Assembly: GCA_022648165.1 (NCBI GenBank)
Contig: JALCLX010000008.1
Location: 43,021 to 107,020, forward strand
From: Ancrocorticia sp.
GTDB lineage: Bacteria; Actinomycetota; Actinomycetes; Actinomycetales; Actinomycetaceae
DNA: 64,000 nucleotides
Direction of reading: 5' to 3'
The first letter of the stretch is position 1, and each line of letters starts with the position of its first letter. A model generated the notes under the pieces. The model saw only the letters and a list, made by a program, of their open reading frames with translations. It was not told the origin of the DNA and ran no database searches. The position numbers were made by a program, and so were the translations under genes. Below are positions 46,271-63,843 of the stretch, one piece after another.

Positions 46271-46396
46271 ACACCTGCACGCAGGACCAGACAGAAAAGC
46301 ACGCTCGGTTCCCCGTCAGAAAGAGGAAACAGATGGAGCGTCTGGTGCCGGCGTGGCCTCGGGACTGTGCAAGAAAGTGTGATGCTTCTATAGTTG

Positions 46397-47488
46397 TCAA
46401 GCGGCTTTTTTGAGTAGTTCCTTGGTGCGTGTCGGGTTTTGTTCGCTGGTGAGTGCTCGGTGGATTTTGCGGGCGAGGTAGCGTTTGAGGCAGCGTATGA
46501 TCTCGCGTTTGTTTTTGCCTTCGGCGGTGCGTTTGTCAACATAGTTCTTGGTGTCTTCGTCAAATCGCATACGGACCAGGATGACGTTGTGCAGTGCTTG
46601 GTTCAAGTGGCGGTCACCGCCCCTGTTTAAGCGTTGACGTTGAGTGTTGCCGGATGATGCGGGTATCGGGCTAGCACCGGCCAGGCAAGCGAAGGCTGCT
46701 TCTGAGTGGATACGTCCGGGGTGAGACCAGACTATGAGGAACTGGGCGGCACTGACAGGGCCAACACCGACCATTGCTCGCAACGCTGGGCTCATTGCCT
46801 GGGTGAGCGTGTCGAGAGCGTCCAGGTTCTCGTTTGCGTCCTGCCAGCCCCTGGTGATGGCGGTGGCGAGGCGTTTGGCTTCACTTCTGGCAACAGTCTG
46901 CAAATAGGTATCCGTTTCGCGTGTGCGCCAGGCACTGATCTGACGGATCTGTTTCTTAGATAAGGGGTGGCGGGCATCAACACCAAGATCGTTGGTTCGT
47001 ACTAAGGCGGTCAGAGCGTTGATCATGGCTGTAGCCTGCCGGGTCATGTGGGTCCTTGCCGCAAGCAGGATCCTTAGTGCTTGGCGTTCATCACCGCTGC
47101 GTGGAATCGTCAGCAAAGAGACGTCGATGGCCAGGGTGCGGGTAGCGATACTTGCAGCGTCGAGACAGTCACTTTTCGCTGTCCTTTTCCGGCCCCGAAC
47201 CACCAGGCGAGGAGCCTCAACAACGAGGTAGCCACCGGATTCTAAAGCTTGTCTCAGGCCCGACCCGTACGAGCTGGCTCCTTCCATCGAGACAAGCACA
47301 TCGGCGGGGGTAGTGCCTGTGCGACGCTTCACCCATGATGCGCAGCGTGCCAGGCCGGCCGGATTAGTGGGAAATGATGCGGTATCCATCTCGGCGCCGG
47401 TAGCGGCGTGAAGGATAGTGAGTGTGTGGGTGCGGGCGTGAGTATCTACTCCCACGACGTACTGGTAGGTGTATGCGACAATGTTCAT
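46397..47488 (-). mobile_element. IS110-family element; transposase CDS
   Basis: YVVGVDTHARTHTLTIL (DEDD N-terminal) and GVGPVSAAQFLIVWSHPGRIHSEAAFACLAGASPIPASSGNTQRQRLNRGGDRHLNQALHNVIL (Transposase_20); ATG at 47488; element ends not determined. Confidence 0.92.
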
Positions 47489-47853
47489 GAGCGTGTGTCC
47501 TTCCATTTCACAACCAAGAATCGGCAGTGCTGCATTGCTCTTTGGTCTGGCCTGGAAAACGCGTGCGTTCACGGGGGCAATACTGTAATGAGTCACGCTC
47601 AGCAATGAGCGGACAAGCTTCTAATCAAGCCACGAGTAAACAGGTCAGGCCATCCCAAACCCTCAGAGACGGACAAATCACACTAAAAACACGAGAACCC
47701 CCACAGGAATCCCCGGTTAGTAACTGGCTGAGCCACGCCCCTAAAAGTTTGGAACCTATCCTGCCAGCCAATCCCAGATCAGCCACCCACAAGCATTACA
47801 GTAACTGGCCCGATTCGCTGATTGGTTTGTCGGCGTGGAAGGTAGGCGAGCTG

Positions 47854-48247
47854 GGATCATCCCCGCCTGCGCGGGGAGCACGACCGGGATCACAGTGCCC
47901 GCAACAGCCGCCGCGGATCATCCCCGCCTGCGCGGGGAGCACTTCTAGTTGGGCGAGTTGCTCGCCCGCAATACGGGATCATCCCCGCCTGCGCGGGGAG
48001 CACAGAATCGGCAGGGCGAAGTGGGCAGATTCCAGCGGATCATCCCCGCCTGCGCGGGGAGCACCCGTGCCAGGAGTGTGGGTTTTATCATCGTCCGGGA
48101 TCATCCCCGCCTGCGCGGGGAGCACGGCAACCTCCACCACACGGGTATCACGCAATCAGGATCATCCCCGCCTGCGCGGGGAGCACGGGAATGCGGTCCC
48201 AGTGTTGTTGTCCGCGTACGGATCATCCCCGCCTGCGCGGGGAGCAC
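47854..48247 (-). CRISPR. Type I-E-like CRISPR array, left segment: 7 identical repeats, 33-nt spacers
   Basis: GGATCATCCCCGCCTGCGCGGGGAGCAC at 47854, 47915, 47976, 48037, 48098, 48159, 48220; 61-bp period. Transcribed strand inferred as minus (GTGCTCCCCGCGCAGGCGGGGATGATCC). Confidence 0.98.
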
Positions 48248-48311
48248 CCACTTGTCGATGACGGTTGAATAATGGTCCAGTATTGACGGTTGAAATGTAG
48301 GCCACTTCGTT

Positions 48312-49556
48312 TTGAGATGGAGTGTGTTGAGAGTGGAAGATTGGGCTGAGATTCGTCGTTTGTCGGTGGCTGAGGGTTTATCGGGGCGGTGTATTGCTCG
48401 TCGTCTTGGTGTTTCGCGTGTGACGGTTGCTCGGGCGTTGGCTCAGGATAGGCCACCGAAGTATGACAGGGCGCGTAGGCCTTCGATTGTGGATCCGTAT
48501 GTTGACCAGATGCGAGTGTTGTTGGCGGAGTATCCGAAGATGCCGGCGACGGTTTTGGCGGAGCGTGTGGGTTTCAATGATGGTCGGTGTACGACGGTGT
48601 TTCGTCAGCGTGTGGCAGTGGTGAAAGCCGAGTTGGGGATGGTTGACCCGGCGGATCGGTTGGTGTTCGCCCCGGGTGAGCAGTTCCAGTGTGACTTGTG
48701 GTTTCCTGGGAAGGTTGTCGGGGAGCAGGGATTGTCTTATCCGGTGGTCACGATGATCGCGTGTTACTCGCGGCGTTTGGAGGCGGTGATGATCCCCTCG
48801 CGGGTGTGTGGGGATATTTTGTCGGGGATGAACGTGTTGCTGACACGTTTTGATGGTTTACCTAAAGCCTTGTTGTGGGATAACGAGGCTGGGCTGGTGT
48901 CGGGGCATCGGTTGATTGCCCAGAGTGCTGGGTGGGCTGGTGCTTTAGGTGTGAAGGTGAAACTGGCCAAACCACGTGATCCGGAGACGAAGGGTCGTAT
49001 TGAGCGAGCTAACGGTTATCTGGGGACGTCGTTTCTTCCTGGGCGTAGATTCGCTTCGATTGAGGATTTCAATACTCAGCTTGAGTCCTGGTTGAGCCAG
49101 AAGGCGAATCATCGCACGGTGCGTGCGTTAGGGTATACGCCCTACCAGGTGTGGGATCACGACTATGAGAAGCTGATCCGTTTGCCTGATCTTCTTCCTG
49201 CGGCAGGCTTGCAGGCTTCTACGCGTTTAGGGCGTGATTACTATGTGCGTCTCGATAGTGCGGATTACTCGGTTGATCCGCATGCGATTGGACGCATTGT
49301 CGATGTTCACGGGTCTTTGGATCGTGTGCGTGTCACATGTGAGGGGCGGGTGGTAGCAGATCACAAGCGGTGTTTCTGTAAGGGAAGCGTGGTTTGTGGC
49401 CCGGCTCATGTGCAAAGCGCGAAAGCATTGCGGGAAAACTTTCAAGCGGCAAGCAGGGCTAATACCCGAACATATGATGCTGTCAGCCAGGTGGCTCAAG
49501 CAGATCTTGCTTCCTATGACACCTTGTGGGATCAGACAAGGAAGGCCGCCCGATGA
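48312..49556 (+). CDS. istA: IS21-family transposase IstA
   Basis: HTH then rve core (QFQCDLWFPG...LLWDNEAG...TKGRIERANGYL). Confidence 0.92.
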   Translation: MRWSVLRVEDWAEIRRLSVAEGLSGRCIARRLGVSRVTVARALAQDRPPKYDRARRPSIVDPYVDQMRVLLAEYPKMPATVLAERVGFNDGRCTTVFRQRVAVVKAELGMVDPADRLVFAPGEQFQCDLWFPGKVVGEQGLSYPVVTMIACYSRRLEAVMIPSRVCGDILSGMNVLLTRFDGLPKALLWDNEAGLVSGHRLIAQSAGWAGALGVKVKLAKPRDPETKGRIERANGYLGTSFLPGRRFASIEDFNTQLESWLSQKANHRTVRALGYTPYQVWDHDYEKLIRLPDLLPAAGLQASTRLGRDYYVRLDSADYSVDPHAIGRIVDVHGSLDRVRVTCEGRVVADHKRCFCKGSVVCGPAHVQSAKALRENFQAASRANTRTYDAVSQVAQADLASYDTLWDQTRKAAR

Positions 49557-50302
49557 GTATTGATTCTGAAATCGCTTACGCTGCTCGCGTGCTCAAGCTT
49601 CCCGTCACTGGCGCAACCTATGCAGGTTTGGCGGATCAGGGACGCCAAGATGGGTGGAGTTTTGAGGAATACCTCGCTGTCGTTTTATCTCGCCAAGTAG
49701 CAGCCCGGGAAGCTAACGGAAGCCAGTTACGGATCCGTAAAGCGAAGTTTCCTCGTATCCACACCCTCGAAGACTTCAACTTTGACTACCAGGTCAGTGC
49801 CCCTCGAGAGTTGATAGCACACGTGGGGACGGCAACATTCATTGCTAATGCGAGCAATGTGATCTTGCTAGGACCCCCAGGAACAGGGAAAACACATTTA
49901 GCGACCGGGATCGGTATTAAAGCCGCCCAAGCTGGTTATAGTGTTGCTTTTGATACGGCTACCGGGTGGATCACCCGACTGCGTCATGCTCATGACAGTG
50001 ACCAACTAGCTGGTGAGCTGTCCCGGATCGGGCGTTACAAGCTGATCATTATCGACGAGCTTGGCTATATCCCGCTGGATGCTGATAGTGCGAACTTGTT
50101 CTCCCAACTCGTATCAGCGCGGTATGAAACCAGTTCGATCATCATCACCAGTAACCTGCCGTTCGCCAGGTGGGGTGAAGCCTTATCAGATCCCACCGTC
50201 GCGGCGGCCTCCATCGACAGGCTCATCCACCACGCCGACATTATCGCATTAAAAGGAGAGTCCTACCGCACCAGAAACAGGAAACAAGAACAAACAAAAT
50301 AA
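49553..50302 (+). CDS. istB: IS21 helper ATPase IstB
   Basis: LLGPPGTGKTHLATGIGIKA, LIIIDELGYIPLD, SSIIITSNLPFARWGEAL; ATGA overlap with istA. Confidence 0.95.
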   Translation: MSIDSEIAYAARVLKLPVTGATYAGLADQGRQDGWSFEEYLAVVLSRQVAAREANGSQLRIRKAKFPRIHTLEDFNFDYQVSAPRELIAHVGTATFIANASNVILLGPPGTGKTHLATGIGIKAAQAGYSVAFDTATGWITRLRHAHDSDQLAGELSRIGRYKLIIIDELGYIPLDADSANLFSQLVSARYETSSIIITSNLPFARWGEALSDPTVAAASIDRLIHHADIIALKGESYRTRNRKQEQTK

Positions 50303-50397
50303 CCCAACCAGTGGCCTACTTTTCAACCGATGAAAATGGCCTACTTTTCAACCGACGTTGACACCCACTTAGCACGTCCTTGCCCGTAATGCGGACA

Positions 50398-50608
50398 GGA
50401 TCATCCCCGCCTGCGCGGGGAGCACCAGCCGCCAGTTTTCGATGCCTCCACCGCTACCGGATCATCCCCGCCTGCGCGGGGAGCACCTTCTTTCTGTTTC
50501 CTGTTCCATACGAAACAGCGGATCATCCCCGCCTGCGCGGGGAGCACCTCGCGGCAATCGCGGCGGCGTTCGGCATCCCGGGATCATCCCCGCCTGCGCG
50601 GGGAGCAC
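50398..50608 (-). CRISPR. Type I-E-like CRISPR array, right segment: 4 identical repeats
   Basis: Same 28-bp repeat at 50398, 50459, 50520, 50581; 33-nt spacers. Confidence 0.98.
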
Positions 50609-50723
50609 GCTGACTCGAAATAAATGGCCCCGTTACCTTGTTGACAGGTCCTTTTGGCGGGTGTTGATTGGGCTTGTCGGTCAGTCGCCTGTGTTGCGTC
50701 AAGTGTTTTTCCTCAGTTGGGGG

Positions 50724-52419
50724 TGGTGTCGTTTTGTTGGACATTTTTGTTGTGTCGTGTGTTGATTATGCCATGAGGCCGAGTTGGTGTCGTCTGGCTG
50801 TGATGCTCGTGGCGTAGGCGGTTTTGATGCGCGTATCGCGATACCACCACATGTATTCGTCAAGCAGTGCCATGAATTCCTCAACAGTGACGTGGGTGTA
50901 GTCGCGTTTATGGTAGAACTCTTGCTTGAGGCGCCCGAAGAATCCTTCAGCTGCCGCGTTATCTGGTGAGCAGCCTTTCGCGCTCATTGAACGAGTCAAC
51001 CCATACTTGCTACAGATACTGATCCATCCTGGCCACCGGTAGTGGCATCCCCGATCCGAGTGAATAATCGGCACCTGGCCATCTTGTAGTCCCTGACACG
51101 CATTTTCAAGCATGCGGTTAGCCATGGCCGCATTCGGGGATGTTGACATCGTCCAGGACACTGGCATCCCGTCAAAGCAATCAATAATCGGCGACAGATA
51201 GACTTTACGTCCCCCAGCATGAAACTCGGTGACATCGGTAACCCACAACTTGTTTGGCTGATCAGCGTGAAAATCCCGGTTCACAATATTGTCCGGAGCC
51301 TTACTCACTTCACCCTTATACGAGGAATATCGGCGTGAGGACTTGAATACGGGTACGATCTGGTGGGCACTCATCAACCGCATCACCCGTTTAGCTCCCA
51401 CACGTATACCAGCACTTCGCAGTTCCAGGCAGACACGCCGATACCCATACCGGGAATGGCTAGCCGTAAACGCTTCACGAATCAACCCCACCAGGGCCAC
51501 ATCCTTATCCGGCTTATCCATCACTTTCAGGTGATAGTAGTAGAGGCTACGAGCGATTCTGAGTCTGGCTGTCAAAGAGGAAACACTGATTTTACGATGG
51601 TGATGGATATGACGTATCAGAATCGTCTTCTCGGAAGCGCTCAGGCCCACTGGGTCTGTGCCCGCCTCTTTTCCCAACAATTCTTTCGTCGTAGTGAGAA
51701 TGTCGACTTCCACCTCCAACTCACGCAGTTCTTTACGTAAAGCCTGCGGAGGTGATGTCAGACGCCTGATCCGCTCACGCAAGACACGATTTTCTTCTTC
51801 CAAACACGCAACACGACTATCCACATCACCAGATCCTAGTGGAGTTCCACCCGCGCTATCGGCAACGCTGGAACGAATACGCTGATCACTCACTCGCACC
51901 CCTGTGGTTAGGGATCTCTTCCACCCCCGAACAGTCGCCGGATGCACGCCCGCATTTTCAGCGACCTCACCTGACGTCTTCTCTTCGACAACCAGGACAC
52001 GAACAGCACTACTACGCTGATCATGAGGAACCTGACGTGCTTGGCTTCGCCGTTGCCCAGGAGCAAGCTCGTCAATCCACGTTGCCAAAAGCTGATGAGT
52101 GGGATAACCCATGTGCCGGATCGTACGAGCGATACGCCGCCCATGACTCACATAAAAATCAACAGCGGCCTGCTTCTGCCCATCCGTATACCGGCCAGAG
52201 CGTTGACCACGATCCCACGCTTGGCCATCGTCCTGTTCGGCTTTCCACTCCAGATACCACGACCTCAAAGACTTCCGATCACGCGGATAACCCAACTCCC
52301 GGATCGTATCAGCGCCACAACAATCGAAACGCACATACGTTTCCACCGCCACACGCCGCTGCTCCATCGAATACTTCACTACCGTAACCTCCCAGAAACT
52401 GTCCAAGATTACGGCACCA
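50724..52419 (-). mobile_element. IS3-family element (boundaries approximate)
   Basis: Imperfect TIRs TGGTGTCGTTTTGTTGGACATTTTTG (left) vs TGGTGCCGTAATCTTGGACAGTTTCTG (right, reverse complement). Confidence 0.75.
50766..52406 (-). CDS. IS3-family transposase encoded as a single ORF
   Basis: 546 aa with N-terminal HTH units and C-terminal rve core (KLWVTDVTEFHAGGRKVYLSPIIDCFDG...IIHSDRGCHYR...AAAEGFFGRLKQEF). Confidence 0.92.
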   Translation of the reverse strand: MDSFWEVTVVKYSMEQRRVAVETYVRFDCCGADTIRELGYPRDRKSLRSWYLEWKAEQDDGQAWDRGQRSGRYTDGQKQAAVDFYVSHGRRIARTIRHMGYPTHQLLATWIDELAPGQRRSQARQVPHDQRSSAVRVLVVEEKTSGEVAENAGVHPATVRGWKRSLTTGVRVSDQRIRSSVADSAGGTPLGSGDVDSRVACLEEENRVLRERIRRLTSPPQALRKELRELEVEVDILTTTKELLGKEAGTDPVGLSASEKTILIRHIHHHRKISVSSLTARLRIARSLYYYHLKVMDKPDKDVALVGLIREAFTASHSRYGYRRVCLELRSAGIRVGAKRVMRLMSAHQIVPVFKSSRRYSSYKGEVSKAPDNIVNRDFHADQPNKLWVTDVTEFHAGGRKVYLSPIIDCFDGMPVSWTMSTSPNAAMANRMLENACQGLQDGQVPIIHSDRGCHYRWPGWISICSKYGLTRSMSAKGCSPDNAAAEGFFGRLKQEFYHKRDYTHVTVEEFMALLDEYMWWYRDTRIKTAYATSITARRHQLGLMA

Positions 52420-52485
52420 CTCCCGTTTCGGATGGGGATTTTCTCCGGGTGTGGTGGCTGGGTGGGTGTTGTGTGTTGTGTTGGC

Positions 52486-53247
52486 CTAGTTGGCCGGGGT
52501 AGTAGTGTTTCCTCCTTGTCTCATCAGGGAGTTTTCTAGTCTCCAGCTGGAGCCTTCGAATGTGATGTGGTGTCCGTGGTGGACGACGCGTTCGATGAGG
52601 GCTGCAGCCATTTGAGTATCGGCAAGGATTTCTCCCCACCTGGCGAATTCAAGGTTCGTGGTGATAATCAAACTGGTGGTCTCATAGGCATCGGCGATGA
52701 CTTGGAAGAGCAGGCGGGCTTGATCAAGATCGATGGGAATGTAGCCCAGCTCGTCTAGGATGAGCACGTCAAGTTTAGCTAACAGGGTCATTTCCCGGTC
52801 GAGGCTACCTTGGTGTGCTGCTTTCGTTAGGGAGAGCACGAGGTGGGCGACGGTTGTGAATTTGACTCTCATCCCTTGCTGGCATGCTGCTAACCCGATC
52901 GCGCTAGCAAGATGGGTTTTACCGGTACCTACCGGGCCGGTGAGCACCAGGTTCTCGATACGCCGCGCGAAGCTCGCGCTCGTGAGGTCTTCCCTTGTCA
53001 AAGATGCCGGCAAAGTGGTGTGTGACCAGTGGAAACTATCCATGGTTTTCAACGCGGGGAAACCGGCTTGTTTGGTGAGCCGGGTGATCTTGGAGCGATG
53101 CCGTGAAGCGAGCTCGGCTTCCAGTAGCGTGTAAAGGAAGGTTTTATCTGAAAGGGTGGCATTCTCACACATGGATGCGACCACGTGTTTCGTCATCATC
53201 GTTTTCGCTGCCAGGTCCAGGATCTGGGCTGTGGTGACCTCACTCAT
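52486..53247 (-). CDS. istB: IS21 helper ATPase IstB
   Basis: LVLTGPVGTGKTHLASAIGLAA, LDVLILDELGYIPID, TSLIITTNLEFARWGEIL. Confidence 0.95.
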   Translation of the reverse strand: MSEVTTAQILDLAAKTMMTKHVVASMCENATLSDKTFLYTLLEAELASRHRSKITRLTKQAGFPALKTMDSFHWSHTTLPASLTREDLTSASFARRIENLVLTGPVGTGKTHLASAIGLAACQQGMRVKFTTVAHLVLSLTKAAHQGSLDREMTLLAKLDVLILDELGYIPIDLDQARLLFQVIADAYETTSLIITTNLEFARWGEILADTQMAAALIERVVHHGHHITFEGSSWRLENSLMRQGGNTTTPAN

Positions 53248-54710
53248 GCTGCTACCGCCTTGAGTTGGTCATAGATCCCCAGGTCAGGGCCGGGGAGAGG
53301 ATCAGGATCGAGACCATAACCGTTGATCCGGGCAGCGAAAGCAGCCACCGCGGTGAAATCCATCATCCGGCCCCGGGCCGCTACTTCTTCAACGGCTTGC
53401 AAGGTTGCCTGCACTCCTGAGGCGTGCATCGAGTCAGCCAGTTGGGCTAACGCGTGACGCCGAGGAGTTGCGTCCATCTGATCTAAAGCCGTGACAAGAT
53501 CTGCGGGCAGCTGGTCACGAATCGCAGTATTACGCCAACCACGCCCTTTGATCGTCAACACACGTAACTGGGAGACAATATCAACACTCGATGTCGGTGT
53601 GGCAGACCATTGACGGACATGAGCGGCAAGCACTTCGTGGGTAGTCGTATCAAGGACCTTGACTTGGTGAGCCCCGACCTGGACTACCACATCACTGATA
53701 CCGCGAGATGGATCCCCAGAATAGTGGTGTTTACCTAAACTGATACCACCGTATCGGTCGGTTCGCATCCCCTGATAGGTGACCGGTTCAAAGCGAATCG
53801 AAGGCAGGGCCCGTAACGCTTGACGATCCTCCTCGAAAAGCTCTTTGAGGGACCGGTCTTTCTTATAGTGAACCCGCTCAAACTGGAGGTCCTCACAGTC
53901 GGTGAGCAGGCTGGCGTTAACATTGACCATGGGTTGGGCCTGGATCATGGGTGTCAACAGGTTACGTCGTAGGAAACCCACCTTGTTTTCCACGTTTCCT
54001 TTCTCATTGCCTGAAGCAGGATTACAGAAAGACACGTCGAAACCGTAATGAGCGCTCAACCGCTCAAATAAGTGACTCATCGTCACGCTGTCTTTACGGC
54101 GCCTACCCACCCCGGTAGCGTTATCGAAGACCAGGCGGGTCGGACATCCCCCAATATGATGGAAAACATCGATGAGGCCCTGACAGACACACTCAGCGGT
54201 TTGACCCCCAAACAGTTGCAGGTAGGCCATATTCGAATACGGGAAAGACACCACCAGGAAATAGCGGCGTACCACCTGCTCTCCTTCTAAAACATCGGCC
54301 TCACCGAAATCAACCTGGGCCTCACCCGGCCTCCACGTCAACTCCAACATTGCCTCACGGCCCGCTTTATGATTCATCCTCCACTGGCGTACATACCGTT
54401 CCACTGTTGACTGACTGGACTGGCATCCGCGCTCACAAGCAAGCACCCATATCCGTTTCGCTGTCAGTTTCTGTTTACGCCACGAACGCGTATCTTCTTC
54501 TAAAAGACCGTCAATGAACTCCTTATACTCATCTAGAGACGGGAAACCCGCCTGCCGGACCAACGGTGGTTTCACCGTGAAATCATCTTCAAACGCATAC
54601 TTACGCACTGTTTTACGATCTATCGTCAAATCCTTGGCGATCCTAGAAATCGTCTCGCCAGCCAAAAACCTTTGGCGTATCCTCACTTGTTGGGACATTC
54701 CGAGCGTCAA
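53244..54710 (-). CDS. istA: IS21-family transposase IstA
   Basis: HTH RIRQRFLAGETISRIAKDLTIDRKTVRKY; rve core EAQVDFGEAD...LVFDNATGVG...NEKGNVENKVGFLRRNLL. Confidence 0.95.
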   Translation of the reverse strand: MTLGMSQQVRIRQRFLAGETISRIAKDLTIDRKTVRKYAFEDDFTVKPPLVRQAGFPSLDEYKEFIDGLLEEDTRSWRKQKLTAKRIWVLACERGCQSSQSTVERYVRQWRMNHKAGREAMLELTWRPGEAQVDFGEADVLEGEQVVRRYFLVVSFPYSNMAYLQLFGGQTAECVCQGLIDVFHHIGGCPTRLVFDNATGVGRRRKDSVTMSHLFERLSAHYGFDVSFCNPASGNEKGNVENKVGFLRRNLLTPMIQAQPMVNVNASLLTDCEDLQFERVHYKKDRSLKELFEEDRQALRALPSIRFEPVTYQGMRTDRYGGISLGKHHYSGDPSRGISDVVVQVGAHQVKVLDTTTHEVLAAHVRQWSATPTSSVDIVSQLRVLTIKGRGWRNTAIRDQLPADLVTALDQMDATPRRHALAQLADSMHASGVQATLQAVEEVAARGRMMDFTAVAAFAARINGYGLDPDPLPGPDLGIYDQLKAVAA

Positions 54711-54740
54711 ATCCTTCCTCCTTCATCGACCCTGAACACG

Positions 54741-56867
54741 TCAATGAAGAACTCTGATGGACAACACCCACGGGATGTCCCACCCATCCACCGAGCGGAC
54801 ACCCCACCACCAACCACAACCCCTCAAAAAGGGCATTGCCGAAACTGAGGAATTCTCACCTCCGAAAACGTCCACAAACAAGTAAAGCAAAACACGGGCC
54901 AGTTGCTCCTCCACGATCGACTCGCCTGCGGTGGTCTGGATCGTCTTGCCCGTGAAGAAGTCGACACTCGCCTTGCGTGGACGTGCTGCCAAGGACTCCG
55001 AGATCTCCTTCTGAAGACCATCGACGAAGTCTGTGTAGGACTCGTCGGTCACCACGGTCAGCTCGTTGATGTCGTGAACCCGAGCACCGACAGTAGCCTC
55101 GTCCATACGTTCACCGTGTTGGTCGACAGCCAGGCGTAGCCCACGTCCGATCTCTTGGCGTCGGGAGACAGTGTTGTCGCTCTTCTTCAGCATCCCCATC
55201 ACGAACACGTTCGGGTTGTCCCACCCCTCCCGTAGGGCCGAGTGGGAGAAGATGAACCGCACTGGCTCGTCGAAGGAGAGCAGTCGTTCCTTGTCCTTGA
55301 GGATGAGGTCGTAGGCGTCGATGTCGGTGGACTGGCCCTTGTCATCGCCGCGCCCGGAGACCTTACCATCCACCTGGTGCTTGGTCTTCTTGTCGATCGA
55401 GAAGTAGCCCTGGTGGATCTCGCGCACCTCGTCCCGGCGCAGGTAGGCCTGATAGGCGGCGGTCGCGCCGCCGAGGGCCAGCTCGCCAAGCACCTCGTCG
55501 CGGATCAGCCCATATTCTTCCTCGAACACGCGTGCGTACTCGCCGAGGGTGTCCTCCCGGGAGTAGTCGCGGTACTTCGCGACTTCGTCGATGAAGAATA
55601 ACGACAGCACCTTGATGCCTTGGGCGAACAGTTCGCGTTCCTTGTCTAGGTGGGCTCGGATGACCTCCCGGATCTGGATGCGCCGCTTCGTGTCCTCCGT
55701 GACATCGCGGTCCGCGAGCTGTCCGGCGAAGACGGTGTCGCCATTGCTCAGCTCGATCACGTCGCGGTTCGCATCGATATCGACGACGACGAGGGATTTG
55801 CCGTCGGGCCGGTAGGCCTCCAGCCCGTTCGACAGGTCATGGAGGTTGGTGCCCTTCTCCACCCGCTTGACCTGCCGCTTGATACCCGTCTTGGTCTGGA
55901 CCTCGATCTCCACTCGGGCCCGCGGTGGCACACCTTTCGCGATCTCGATCGCTTCCAAGTAGAGGTAGGCGGTCGACCCGGCAAGGCCCTTCACGGTGAT
56001 GCCCCGCACGGCGATCTTCTTGACCAGCTTCTGGTTGTAGGCATCCAGCGCGTCCAGGCGATGGACCTTGGTGTGCTCAACCTTGTGGGTGGCGGAGTAC
56101 CGCAACATCATCAGCCCGTTGAAGTTCGACAACGCGGTCAGTGACTTCTCTGCGCCGATCTTCTGCGGTTCGTCGATGATGACGATCGGCCGGTTCGCGG
56201 CGATCACATCGATGGGCTTGCGTGACTGGAAGTCGTCCAGGACGTCGTAGATCCGCCGGTTATCTTTACCAGTTGCGTTGAAAGCCTGGATGTTGATGAT
56301 CATAACTTGAACACCCGCGTCCGAGCTGAACCGCTCCAGCTCGTGAAGTTGTGATGAGTTGTAGACGAAGGACCGCGGCTTGGTGCCGTACATCTGCTGG
56401 AAGTGGTCCGCAGTGACGTCGAAAGACTTCTTCACGCCTTCTCGGATTGCGATCGACGGGACCACGACGATGTACTTGGACCAGCCATAGCGCTTGTGCA
56501 GCTCCATGATCGTCTTGATGTAGACGTAAGTCTTGCCCGTGCCGGTCTCCATCTCCACATCTAGGTTCGGGGCATGAGGTGCGGCCTTGCTGTCCTTCAG
56601 CGTCGCCGAAAGTGGAAGATTCCGAGTCCGTTGGACCTTCTGGACATTCGACAGCAGCTGTGCCTCATTCAGCGCGACTTCCGCGTTACGCAGACCCGAG
56701 TCCGGTCGCTCGTCGGTCTCAAACAGGGCTGGATTGGCCACCGGCGTGACCTTGCCCGGGTCGATCCGGTACGAGATTCCCTCATGCTTCGGTTGCCCTT
56801 CGAACACCTCGACGACCGAGCCAACCGCATCCGTCTGGTACTGCTGAACCTTGAACTGAAGCTTCAT
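54741..56867 (-). pseudogene. Type III restriction enzyme Res subunit, C-terminus truncated by IS21-family element
   Basis: [61 protein letters not shown]; the ending ...[41 protein letters not shown] looks like IS-derived read-through. Confidence 0.85.
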
Positions 56868-56872
56868 TACAA

Positions 56873-58366
56873 TCAGATGGCCTTCACTTCAGTCGACGGG
56901 GACACCTCGCGGAACACCTGCTCGGCATTGATGCGCGCTGCATCGGACTCGAATCCGTCGTCACGGAACACCGCCCGAAGTGGCGTTCGCTGAGCTATCT
57001 CTTGAACTACGTCCGGAGCAACATGCTTGTCGAAACAAGCCATCAAGGATCCCTCTTCAACGTCAAAGACTTGATGCCCGCTGAGTGCCTCCACTTTTAT
57101 CGGCATCGTGAGTTCGAGTCCCCAGTCGAGCAGGACCTGGAAGAGTACGTCCTCGCCAGACCGGTCACTCTTGATGCTGGGTTCAAGTTCGCCGAGCGCG
57201 AGCTGGTCGGTCTCATCAGGTTCTCGCGTGCCGTCAGTCATATTCGTGGTGTCAATCTTGACGAGTCGGTACCCAAGATCAGGCGGGTTCAGTTCGGCCG
57301 AGAGTTCTGCTGCGACATTCTTGATTCGTTCGAGGCTCATGCCGAGAATCGACTTGAAAGTCGGCTCTGGTCTTTCCAATGGTTCCTGGATCTGGACGCA
57401 TATGTAGCGGCGGTTTCCACCGTCGAGGGAGTTCTGGACCATCACAGCATGTGGTGTCGTGCCACTACCGCTGAAAAAGTCAAGAACGATGTCATTGTCC
57501 TTCACGTTTGTGGCGAGTTGGAGAATGCGTTGAATGAGTTGAACCGGTTTCACCGAGTTAAGCACATTCTCAGTGTGCTCAAAGGGCACATACTTGAGGA
57601 GCGTCTTCTTCGCATCCTGAGTATGACCGACCTCTGAATATGGCCAAAACGTCTGCAGAGTGCGCCCTCCCGAGACTTCTGAGAGATAGCGCTTGAGTCT
57701 CGGAGTACTGTCGGGTCCATTGCCCCACCAGATTCGTCCTTCCTCAGCAAGTTCTTTGAATCGCGCCTCAGAAAATCTCCAGTAGCTTCCTCTTGGGGGT
57801 CCTGAAATCACCCGTCCGCTCGGTGTCTCGATCGGATAAAGACCAGAATCGTATCTATTCCTGGCCGCAAGATCAGAGGATGCCCACGGGCCGCGCGGAT
57901 CGTCGTCAGGATTCTTATAACGGGCGTCCATTTCTGGTGTGCGTGGAAGCGAGTTTGGTGTCCAGTCTTGTTTATCGCGCGCGTAGCAGACAATGTAGTC
58001 ATGATCTTCTGAGAACCACTGGGCCGAGTTCTTCGGAGAGAAGACCTTCTGCCAGATGATCTGGGCAACGAAGTTCTGCGCTCCAAAGACCTCGTCACAT
58101 AGCTCACGGAGGTTGTCGATCTCGTGGTCGTCGATAGAAATGAAGATGACCCCATCATCTTTGAGGAGGTTTCGGGCCAGCTTAAGCCGTGGGTACATCA
58201 TGCTCAGCCAGTCCGAGTGGTAGCGACCGTTGGCGTCCGTGTTCGCCACCAGGCGCACACCCTCATCGTCGGCTTGGCCAGAACGCTCAAGGAAGGACGC
58301 GGTCGACTCGGCGAAATCGTCGTCATAGATGAAGTCACGGCCCGTGTTGTAGGGAGGGTCTCGCAT
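56873..58366 (-). pseudogene. Type III R-M Mod subunit (beta-class N6-adenine methyltransferase), N-terminus missing
   Basis: Begins abruptly at MRDPPYNTGRDFIYDDDF (catalytic motif IV); motif I DFFSGSGTTPHAV present; no in-frame sequence upstream of DPPY. Confidence 0.85.
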
Positions 58367-58367
58367 C

Positions 58368-58751
58368 GCGAATCATGAAGACAGCGAGCTGCTCCTTATC
58401 GAAAAAACGGCACTGGACCGTTTTTACGAAGAAGACGATCTGAAACTGCTGACCAGCTACGTTATCCCAGAGGAGCACAAGAACGCCTCATATGGGACAT
58501 CGTTCGGCGTGTTCCTCGGATACTCGCTCGGCCTGATCCCCGACGGCTACGACGATGACCAGTTCAGGGAACGCATGCACCTGAAAATGATCCGGGATAT
58601 CAAAGCTCACGAAGACTACATCGCCGGAAAGATCAGGGAGGCTGGGCTGCAGAACCATTCGTTCTATTTCTTCACCCTGCCGCTCAATCAAGCCGAGACG
58701 GAAAGCAACGAGATCATGCAGCATGTCATGGAAGGAGATGTCGACCTATGA
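58368..58751 (+). pseudogene. HamA-like (DUF1837) C-terminal fragment, Hachiman-like
   Basis: Open frame NHEDSELLLIEKTALDRFYEEDDLKLLTSYVIPEEHKNASYGTSFGVFLGYSLGL...DIKAHEDYIAGKIREAGLQNHSFYFFTLPLNQAETESNEIMQHV; adjacent to HamB-like helicase; N-terminus missing. Confidence 0.65.
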
Positions 58752-61492
58752 ACACTGGTAAAAGAACACTAGGGTCGGCCATCTTCACGGATATCGACAG
58801 CAATGCGTATCTGGGAAAGCTGTACGCGAGACTCCTCAAAGGCTACGGAATGCACGTCTTTAACATAGGTCAAAGCCAGCAAGCCGGGCTGTTCACCAGT
58901 AAGGAAAAGTCGGACATACTGCGTTTCGCGGATATTCTTTCCAAGTCGAACGATCCGGCAAAAGCCGACTCCCATATGATCTGGGCGCAGGAAATCGTCA
59001 TATTGATGAACGAGCTTTACCCGGATGATCCGCTCGTAAAACTTTACGCAGGTAACGTGTTCTCGAGTGTCGGGAATCACAAGGGTCTTGAACTGGTCAA
59101 CAAGACGTATTCAGAGCCGAATGCGCTGGAGGAGATCTTCGCAAAATTCCGTAGCGACTACCTTGCCATTCCTGCGGAGCCCGGCGAGCATTTCTTCGGA
59201 GAGCAGAAGAACGCGTACGACCATCTGACAGACGAATGCTTCAGCTACTCCGCACCGACATCGATGGGAAAGTCCTTCATCATGCGGATGTTCATCAAGG
59301 ACGAGATCATGCACGGCGCACAGAAGAACTACGCACTGATCGTCCCGACAAAGGCACTGATAAATGAAGTGCGTACGAAGGTCATCGACGACCTTGGCGG
59401 CGAAAAGAACACGGAGAAGATCAACTATCTCGCCCGCTGCAATTACAGCGTTGTGACCGCAGCCAGCGACATAGCCTTAGAGGATGAGAGCCAGAACTTT
59501 ATTCTCGTCATGACTCCGGAGCGGCTTCTCTACCTGCTTATCGCAAAACCTCACTTTGACCTCGACTACCTGTTCATTGACGAGGCGCATAAGCTCTCTG
59601 GTAAAAACAGTCGAGCGCCCTTCTAATACAAGGTGGTGGACAAGCTGGTTCACCGCCAGAAGAAGCCGCACTTCATCTTCGCCTCGCCGAACATACCGAA
59701 TCCGCAGGTCTATCTGCGACTGATGTTGAATGCAGAAGAAGGTGACGAAGAGGCACTGGCGATCACCTACTCGCCGGTAGTACAGATCAAGTTTCTTGTT
59801 GATCTGCAGAAAGGGCAAATCGAAGTTTATAACGAGCACGCGCCTGAGGAGCAGTGCAGGATACTGTTGGCGAATATCAACGGGAACGGCATCGAGGTGA
59901 ATGACTTCCTGCTGGCAATCGAAACGCAGAACCGTAGGCTTCCCGAGGAAGAACGCAGGCAGAGCATCGTCTACTACAACGGGCGGAATAAGGCAGTGAA
60001 TGCCGCACAAGCCTTTTTTGAACGGGTGAAGCCGAACGGCCCGAGGAATGATCCGCTCCTCGATTCACTGTCAAAAGATATTCAGGAAGAAGTCCATCAA
60101 TGGTATTACCTCGCTGAGATGGTGCGTTATGGCATTGCCTACCACATCGGATATCTGCCTGCATCGATAAGAGCCCGGATCGAAGAATTGTTCAAATCCG
60201 GAAACATCACGGTGATGTTCTGCACAAGCACCCTGCTTGAAGGCGTCAACCTGCCCGCTGACAACCTGTTCATCATGGAGAACAAGATATTCCTCAGCGA
60301 GATGAACACGATCGATTTCCGCAACCTCATCGGTCGAGTGGGCAGAATCAGCTTCAACCTCTATGGGAATGTGTACTTTGTGGCGGAACGCGACAGCAAG
60401 ATAACGACGGGCGACTATGTGAGGATGCTTGGGCAGACGATTCCTGAACAGTCGCTTTCCATTGCCACAGATCCGGATGTGCTCAAGAAGGTTGAAAAGC
60501 AGTATGTCGCTGACATTCTCAAAAGCGGGAGATCAGAGATACCGCGTCGCGTGAACCCAGAGGGCAAGTACCTCCAGAGCGAGGAATCCTACGAGATGAT
60601 GCGCAGATTTGCGACGATCCTTCAAGGCGACATCGTCCACGACCGGGACACGCTGGTGCGCCGGGAATTCAGCGACTTCCTGACACCTGCCGACGAGGAG
60701 CACATCAGAGAAACTTTCAAGGACGCCGAAGTAAAGCCGGATGACGACATCAATACGTCGGTCGATCAGACAAGAAATCTGATCACAGCAATAAGAAGAG
60801 AACGCAATCCGCTGCATTACCCGGAGCTGATCAACGGGAAGACCTCTTACCCGGACGTAGTCGGATTCCTCGATGAACTTGCAGAAGTATTCAACTGGGA
60901 GGAGTACGAGACAAACACGCTTGGAAAGCCATCGCTCCGCAGCTGGTATGCCGTAATCCTCTGCCAATGGATGGATGGCGGCGGCCTGAAATACATCATG
61001 GACAGGGCGCTCGATTACCATGAGCAGAATCCCTATCCGTTCTGGATCAACAAGTATGGACCACCGGGCACATATAACCCGAACTCACAGGAGCATCACA
61101 ACATCGTATTCGGAGATACGCTCGAGGTCATCGAGAACATCATCCTCTACAGTATTTCGAACTACTTCCTGCGGTTCTCCAACGAGTATCGGAAGATCAA
61201 GGGTGAAGAAGCACTCAACCGGAACAACTGGTATGAGTATGTGGAATTCGGAACAACGAATCCGTTGACGATCTTGCTGCAGCGGAGCGGCTTCTCGCGA
61301 GAAGCGGCACGCTACATAAAGGAGCATCGCGGCGAGTTCGTTATCCGGGATGGGAGCACTGGGCAATTGAAACTGAGTCCAGCACTCGCCCAGTGCAGCA
61401 ATACCGATGTGCGTAACGAGATTGTGTACATCAGGCAGAACTCTCCGGAGATTTTTGAGACCGGCAATTTTGACGAGGGACAAACGCAATGA
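58748..61492 (+). pseudogene. HamB-like superfamily 2 helicase interrupted by an in-frame TAA at 59624..59626
   Basis: SYSAPTSMGKSFIMRMF (Walker A), LFIDEAHKLSGKNSRAPF*YKVVDKLVHRQKKPHFIFASPNIPNP, TSTLLEGVNLPADNLFI, LIGRVGRISFN; ORFs 58748..59626 and 59633..61492 share one frame. Confidence 0.8.
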
Positions 61493-63843
61493 AGAAGATC
61501 GATAAGACAGACACGCTCAAGACGATTCTGAGCGGGCGCAAGTACACGGTGGATTATTTCCAGCGTGAATATCGCTGGGGCCAGAAGCAGATCGAGCAGA
61601 TGATCGCCGACTTCCAGAGCACCTTCGAGGAGTATTACGATCCGGAGGATCATGACACGACCGAGGAAGTCATGGGATATGGCTTCTATTACATGGGGTG
61701 CATCATCTGCACGGGAGGTTCGGTCAAGAAGATCATAGACGGGCAGCAGCGGCTGACGTCGCTGACACTGCTTTTGATCTACCTCAACAACCTGCAGAAG
61801 GAGACAATCGAAAACGCTGACGAACGGGTCCCGCTCGACGACATGATTTACTCGAACGCGTTCGGCAAGAAGAGCTTCAACATCGATGTGAAGGACCGCG
61901 GCCCGTGCATGCAGGCATTGCTGCAGGGCGACGAGACTTATGCGCCGGAGAACGAGAGCGCCCAGAACATGCTCGACCGGTACGAGGACATCGAGGACCT
62001 GTTCCCCGACGAGCTCAAGGGAGAGGCGCTTCTGTACTTCATCTACTGGCTTATCGAGAAGGTGCTCCTCCTGGAGATCGACACTCCTTCGGACGACGAG
62101 GCGCACACGATATTCCTCACTATGAATGACCGCGGCCTGAGTCTGAACAGCGCGGAGATGATGAAGGCATACATCATCCAGCAGGTGGCAGAGCAGGACC
62201 GGATCGCGGTCAACCGCCAGTGGCAGGACAACATCAACCGCATCAAGAACGCCTCCTCCTATGACACGAGCGGCATGGTAAACACGCAGGACGTGGAGTT
62301 CATCTCCGCCTGGCTGCGCGCGAAGTACGCCAGCACCATGCGTGACACCAAGCGCGGTGCCAGAGACGAAGACTATGAACTCCTCGGCGACAAGTTCCAC
62401 ACATGGGTCCGCAACAACGCCCGGTCGGCGATGAATCTCGTAAAGCCGAAGGACTACAAGGATTTCGTACTCACCGAGATGACGCGCGTGACCGACATCT
62501 ATCTGCGGATGAAGGAATATGGCGGCAAGCTCACCGAAGGTTATGAAGAGGTCTTATACAATGCGAACCGGGATCTGACCTACCAGACCATGCTCGCCAT
62601 CGCCGCCATCAGGAACGACGACCCCGAGGACGTCATCAAGCGGAAGATCCAGATGACCGCCAAGTTCGTGGACGACTTCGCAACCATCCGGATCATGAAC
62701 TTCAAGAAGGTCAACTGGAACACAAACAAATACCTGCTGTTCCGCGTGATGCGTGATATCCGGAACGAGGACTGCAAGACGATAGGGATGGTCTACGTAC
62801 GTACCCTGCGGCGCATGGACGTGACCGTCGAGGGCGTCACCCGGTTCAGCCTGAACCAGTTCTCCGGACGGTACATGCTCCACATCCTCGCCCGGTTCAC
62901 CTCCTACGTGAACGTGCAGATGGGGAATCCGTCGCACTTCGAGGAATACGTCGACCGCAAGCGCCAGGGCAACACCTACGACATCGAGCACATCCTGCCC
63001 GACAAGTACGAGGACTACAAGGACAGTTTCGCGGACTACGACGACTTCGAAACCACCAGAAACCAGATCGGGAACCTGATCCTGCTCACGCGTGACAAGA
63101 ACAGAAGCTACCAGGCGATGAAGTACACGGAGAAGGTCCAGAAATACGCCGGGGACAACATACTCGCGCAGGCTTTGAACGGCATCGCGTACACGAACAA
63201 CCCGAAGTTCCTCGAAGTAGCGAACGAATACGGTTTCAAGGCCATTCCCGATTTCGGCAAGCAGAGCATCGCCGACCGGGCGGAAATCTACCTGCGCATG
63301 GCCAGTGACATCTGGAATCCGGACGCCATCAAGCAGATCGCGGGCGGCTGGACCGATGACGAGGAGAAGGGTTTCTTCAAGAACGAGAAAGGCCGTGAAT
63401 TCACTGTCGGCTACGCTGATCGCAGCTGGCCGGACGCGCTGAAGTACGGATTCCTGTCCGCGAATCTTGGCGGAAGCGGGAAGTCGATCTACAACGTACA
63501 GGTCGGCGACACCATCTACTGCCATATCGCCGGGAACGGCTTCGTCGGCATTGGCGAATGCACGTCGACCGCCGTGCCGATGAAGAACTTCACCGTGATG
63601 GTCAATGGCACGCCGACCCCTGTGGCTGACGCTCCATGGGAATCTGAGGAAGCCAAGCGGAATCTCGATCCCAACAAGGAGGTGTTCATCGGGGTCACGT
63701 GGAAGAGCTACGTGACCGATGTCAACGATGCCTACTGGGAGAAAGGAATGAAGACCGTTCCTCTCGTGGCCTATATGCTCAACGACAAGATGACGCACCA
63801 GAAGGTCAGAGAACACTTCGGCTATCCCGAAGCCGACGACTGA
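61489..63843 (+). CDS. DUF262 + DUF1524 (GmrSD-like) protein with C-terminal EVE/PUA-like domain
   Basis: VDYFQREYRWGQKQIEQ and IDGQQRLTSL (DUF262); YDIEHILPDK...RNQIGNLILLTRDKNRSYQAMKYTEK (DUF1524 HNH-like); C-terminal YNVQVGDTIYCHIAGNGFVGIGECT; ATGA overlap with hamB. Confidence 0.85.
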   Translation: MKKIDKTDTLKTILSGRKYTVDYFQREYRWGQKQIEQMIADFQSTFEEYYDPEDHDTTEEVMGYGFYYMGCIICTGGSVKKIIDGQQRLTSLTLLLIYLNNLQKETIENADERVPLDDMIYSNAFGKKSFNIDVKDRGPCMQALLQGDETYAPENESAQNMLDRYEDIEDLFPDELKGEALLYFIYWLIEKVLLLEIDTPSDDEAHTIFLTMNDRGLSLNSAEMMKAYIIQQVAEQDRIAVNRQWQDNINRIKNASSYDTSGMVNTQDVEFISAWLRAKYASTMRDTKRGARDEDYELLGDKFHTWVRNNARSAMNLVKPKDYKDFVLTEMTRVTDIYLRMKEYGGKLTEGYEEVLYNANRDLTYQTMLAIAAIRNDDPEDVIKRKIQMTAKFVDDFATIRIMNFKKVNWNTNKYLLFRVMRDIRNEDCKTIGMVYVRTLRRMDVTVEGVTRFSLNQFSGRYMLHILARFTSYVNVQMGNPSHFEEYVDRKRQGNTYDIEHILPDKYEDYKDSFADYDDFETTRNQIGNLILLTRDKNRSYQAMKYTEKVQKYAGDNILAQALNGIAYTNNPKFLEVANEYGFKAIPDFGKQSIADRAEIYLRMASDIWNPDAIKQIAGGWTDDEEKGFFKNEKGREFTVGYADRSWPDALKYGFLSANLGGSGKSIYNVQVGDTIYCHIAGNGFVGIGECTSTAVPMKNFTVMVNGTPTPVADAPWESEEAKRNLDPNKEVFIGVTWKSYVTDVNDAYWEKGMKTVPLVAYMLNDKMTHQKVREHFGYPEADD

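Follow-up and report, generated by a model that had tools for sequence, protein, structure and literature searches.

An IS21-family insertion at a repeat–spacer junction of a type I-E CRISPR array remnant in Ancrocorticia sp., most likely a neutral scar

The closest described case comes from Xanthomonas citri pv. citri, where IS21-family (ISRso19-like) insertions in CRISPR arrays are found once in a repeat and once in spacer Xcc_18, the latter with a 4-bp effect at the site (PMC6889575). In Sulfolobus solfataricus, ISC1359 sits in spacer 28 of an array (PMC3025118). The CRISPR locus of Mycobacterium tuberculosis also carries IS insertions, which are used for strain typing, as cited in PMC6889575. 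The locus reported here is like the first of these in having an IS21-family element inside a CRISPR array, like the second in that an IS fell within a single spacer, and like the third as a case of IS polymorphism within an array. However, the Xanthomonas IS is multicopy and a leader primer was used to amplify the arrays; our element is single-copy, and its array has neither a leader nor any of the tested cas genes. The Sulfolobus case involves a different IS, an active system and selection by a matching protospacer, and no such selection is visible here. Insertion of an IS21 element in a CRISPR repeat or spacer is thus already published (PMC6889575), and ours is a new instance with low surprise value.

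The window, meaning the whole stretch of DNA that we analysed, is 64,000 nucleotides long. Our main reading, to which we give a probability of roughly 0.87, is that an IS21 element inserted at the junction between repeat 7 and its neighboring spacer in a finished type I-E array that is now a remnant, and that the insertion is most likely a neutral scar because this remnant has no leader and no signature cas genes. The array and the insertion site comprise the following features.

47854..48247, minus strand: CRISPR repeats 1–7 in window order, the leader-distal block (28-nt repeats, 33-nt spacers; orientation from relatives)
48247..48252, no strand: left copy of the target duplication, CCCACT, its first C being the last base of repeat 7
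48253..50363, plus strand: IS21-family insertion sequence, 2111 bp, the sole copy in the assembly
50364..50369, no strand: right copy of the target duplication, CCCACT
50365..50397, minus strand: complete, uninterrupted 33-nt spacer, preserved through the duplication
50398..50608, minus strand: CRISPR repeats 8–11, the leader-proximal block
50609..50627, minus strand: stub of 16–20 nt after the last repeat, either a truncated spacer or a leader remnant

Eleven identical 28-nt repeats, GGATCATCCCCGCCTGCGCGGGGAGCAC, lie within 47854–50608 (0 expected by chance), and this sequence occurs nowhere else in the 2.18-Mb, 18-contig genome. They enclose nine complete spacers of 33 nt each; the tenth interval, between repeats 7 and 8, holds the IS and is 2150 nt long. 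Compared at an offset of exactly 2117 bp, the length that excision removes, the two sides share a 9-bp string, CACCCACTT, at 48245–48253, and because this string is so long the exact cut point is ambiguous. The empty site is nevertheless identical for every choice of cut: a repeat, the 33-nt spacer CCACTTAGCACGTCCTTGCCCGTAATGCGGACA and a repeat, with the 61-bp register restored. This agrees exactly with the original prediction that excising the element plus one CCCACT copy leaves one 33-nt spacer in register, and both copies, together with the shared C at the end of repeat 7, are correct to the base. Of 61,870 window positions, 20 show a 6-bp match at the 2117-bp offset, and the CCCACT match is the one located exactly at the element termini.

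The duplication allows two readings, 6 bp or 5 bp with an additional C, and the reconstructed spacer is the same either way. The 6-bp reading puts one of the cuts 1 bp into repeat 7, and the 5-bp reading puts it at the repeat/spacer boundary. The claim that the element sits within a spacer therefore needs qualifying: the ancestral site was split, but no spacer sequence has been lost, and the whole 33-nt spacer survives at 50365–50397 because the target was duplicated. The right CCCACT copy leaves this spacer joined to its upstream repeat, so that the IS removes only the downstream one.

The exact register and the target duplication also bear out the proposal that the insertion postdates the building of the array, and at the level of sequence they demonstrate a single insertion, with duplication, into a finished array. 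They argue equally against an assembly artefact in which a misjoin placed the IS in the array. The assembly is a draft of 18 contigs and IS copies often cause misjoins, but it contains only one copy of this element, which leaves no second copy to misjoin with. We regard this explanation as scarcely credible.

The element carries the genes and ends given below.

48253..48306, plus strand: left terminal inverted repeat, with two CGGTTGAA units, at 48262 and 48287
48312..49556, plus strand: istA transposase, 414 aa (NF033546, 178 bits, cut-off 160)
49526..50302, plus strand: istB helper ATPase, 258 aa (NF038214, 261 bits, cut-off 200)
50310..50363, minus strand: right terminal inverted repeat, with two units, at 50322 and 50347

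Both genes exceed the NCBIfam cut-offs used for IS21-family calls, as expected from the original assignment to that family. The two frames are adjacent and overlap at 49526–49556. Alignment with the IS5376 IstA structure (8q4d) places the putative DDE residues at D128, D190 and E231. The 2111-bp element begins with TGTC and ends with GACA, and its terminal repeats are doubled at each end, in agreement with the published description of IS21 elements (PMC10122671). Every feature of the family that we looked for was present: istA with a DDE core, istB, TG...CA ends with two repeats per end, and a target duplication. IS5376, another IS21-family element (PDB 8q4d, 8b4h), is alike in its IstA homologue, its terminal CA and its two direct repeats per end, but it is remote in sequence (75 bits) and comes from another host.

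Close copies of the element were found neither elsewhere in its own genome nor in 215 family genomes or plasmids, and a scan of GTDB genomes yielded no close copy and one distant partial relative. Since the family genomes hold no close copy, the ends were mapped on distant relatives, with about 45–50% protein identity for those named here. Four of these, from Rhodococcus, Mycobacteroides, Microbacterium and a family genome (G052), start with TGTC and have the same doubled repeat, and in the comparison of relatives the TGTC/GACA termini and doubled repeats are common to at least five distant elements. The original prediction had named different ends in other copies as a ground for refutation; checked on these distant relatives, which share the termini, it was not refuted.

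Target-site duplications in the IS21 family are short, at 4–8 bp. The four relatives have clean 5-bp duplications (GTATG, AGTTG, TGCGC and GTATG), against 6 bp here, a difference that counts against our main reading. By analogy with the family, the element would have transposed by its own IstA/IstB reaction with a stagger of 5–6 bp. The target would have been the junction of repeat 7 and the neighboring 33-nt spacer in a finished type I-E array, with 5–6 bp duplicated.

The form of the array is that of type I-E, with palindromic repeats of about 28 nt and spacers of 32–33 nt, and the same repeat type stands beside I-E cas genes in relatives. In four genomes with near-identical repeats (G143, G096, G109 and G078), the I-E cas operon is on the right once the locus is turned to the orientation of the window. 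A sister genome of the same genus (G001) has the order cas, leader, array and degenerate last repeat, and in that direction its repeat reads ...GGGGATGATCC. The side of cas and the direction of the repeat in these relatives show that the array here runs on the minus strand, from a leader on the right. The sister genome holds a complete I-E system at its locus L093, with two degenerate repeats far upstream at L093:3725–3826.

Of the parts of a functional type I-E system, neither a cas operon nor a leader was found. The genome, which is essentially complete, has no Cse1, Cas1 or Cas7, although a gap between its 18 contigs could still conceal a cas locus; the same Cas7 search was positive in 8 of 12 relatives tested, one of them of the same genus. 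Beside the first repeat in reading direction, where a leader would be expected, there is the stub and then IS sequence. As a candidate leader the stub was rejected, as by eye it has no similarity to the leader ends of relatives. The original prediction held that the element splits the crRNA precursor. With the leader gone and Cse1, Cas7 and Cas1 absent, there is probably no working, processed precursor left to split, and the spacer remains whole on the leader side.

The eleven repeats are all identical, which suggests that the system was lost recently. The same lack of decay (11/11 repeats) would also fit an array that Cas proteins encoded on another replicon still use in trans, in which case the IS would alter crRNA output by dividing the transcript into two blocks, and a species of the same genus does have a full I-E system. 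However, the repeat of that sister differs from the one here (GTTGACCCCGCGTGAGCGGGGATGATCC), no leader is left, and Cse1, Cas7 and Cas1 are missing from the genome. We consider service in trans very unlikely.

Silencing of a harmful spacer, either self-targeting or directed against a useful plasmid, could also have favored the insertion, and there is a precedent in S. solfataricus, where selection with a plasmid yielded ISC1359 insertions in the matching spacer (PMC3025118; PMC3839810). The spacer searches lend this no support. With up to 3 mismatches allowed, the interrupted spacer matches nowhere else in its own genome and nowhere in 214 family genomes, and self-targeting was rejected on that ground. 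A search of the reconstructed spacer against phage and plasmid sequences, as the original prediction had suggested, returned chance-level matches only, none of them credible. The other nine spacers likewise gave only chance-level matches against phages; the top hit, in which the first spacer matched Microbacterium phages over 20 nt (E = 7), was not credited. Moreover, the element leaves a whole spacer beside its upstream repeat, and Cse1, Cas7 and Cas1 are absent. Selection for silencing is thus an unlikely cause, and a neutral scar in a remnant array is the reading that we carry forward.

Both edges of the array are occupied by further IS sequence, as follows.

46359..47847, minus strand: IS110-family element that stops 6 bp short of repeat 1, its ends fixed by a second identical copy
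50628..50689, plus strand: IS110-type remnant, about 62 bp of non-coding end, 86–97% identical to ends in about ten family genomes
50724..52419, minus strand: IS3-family element with a transposase frame at 50766–52406 (NF033516, 340 bits) and TGGTG...CACCA ends set by comparison with a relative
52420..54876, minus strand: second IS21-family element, with istB at 52486–53247 and istA at 53244–54710, about 3 bp short at the IS3 junction
54741..56867, minus strand: truncated type III restriction gene res, covering residues 1 to about 653 of a 1027-residue homologue

The second copy of the IS110-family element on the left lies at G000:C8:21820–23308, and the flanks of the two copies share no obvious target motif. 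Beyond the last repeat, the order is stub, IS110 remnant, IS3, IS21 and truncated res. Ends like the 50628–50689 segment adjoin intact IS110 transposases in several of the roughly ten family genomes, and the segment is possibly the bridge-RNA-bearing end; the remainder of those IS110-type elements has no match in the window. The left end of the IS3 element was placed at 50641 and then at 50625 before both were ruled out, 50628–50689 being the IS110-type end and 50724 the IS3 end. No target duplication was seen around the IS3 element. The second IS21 element ends, at 54876, inside res, and the window does not contain the remainder of that gene.

We infer a rearrangement on the leader side, where a truncated restriction gene meets parts of three further IS. 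Such a junction is what IS-adjacent deletions leave behind. Judged by the gene order of relatives, leader and cas would have stood between the array and res and would have gone with the deleted part, so an IS-associated rearrangement on this side most likely removed both. It is also conceivable that IS elements took the CRISPR locus apart stepwise under selection, through autoimmunity or through conflict with plasmids, and that the insertion at the spacer was one of the selected steps. We hold this to be improbable; if it were true, the site would preserve the succession of steps by which an adaptive immune system was lost.

The segment from 54741 to 63843 beside the array is a decayed defence island. 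Its type III res is truncated at the 3′ end and its type III mod lacks the first ~120 residues. The Hachiman HamB helicase gene is present as two frames (58748–59626 and 59633–61492) with one in-frame stop between them, and a GmrSD/SspE-like gene follows near the contig end. The right end of the window, 64000, is the end of contig C8, so the island may continue past the assembly.

On our preferred reading of a neutral scar, this locus is a clean example of CRISPR array decay. The duplication together with the fixed 61-bp register proves that one insertion took place in an already finished array, and loss on the leader side is evident from the nest of IS elements around it. This highlights that an IS within an array says little about immunity before the cas genes and the leader have been checked. 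The insertion itself could be used as a strain-typing marker.
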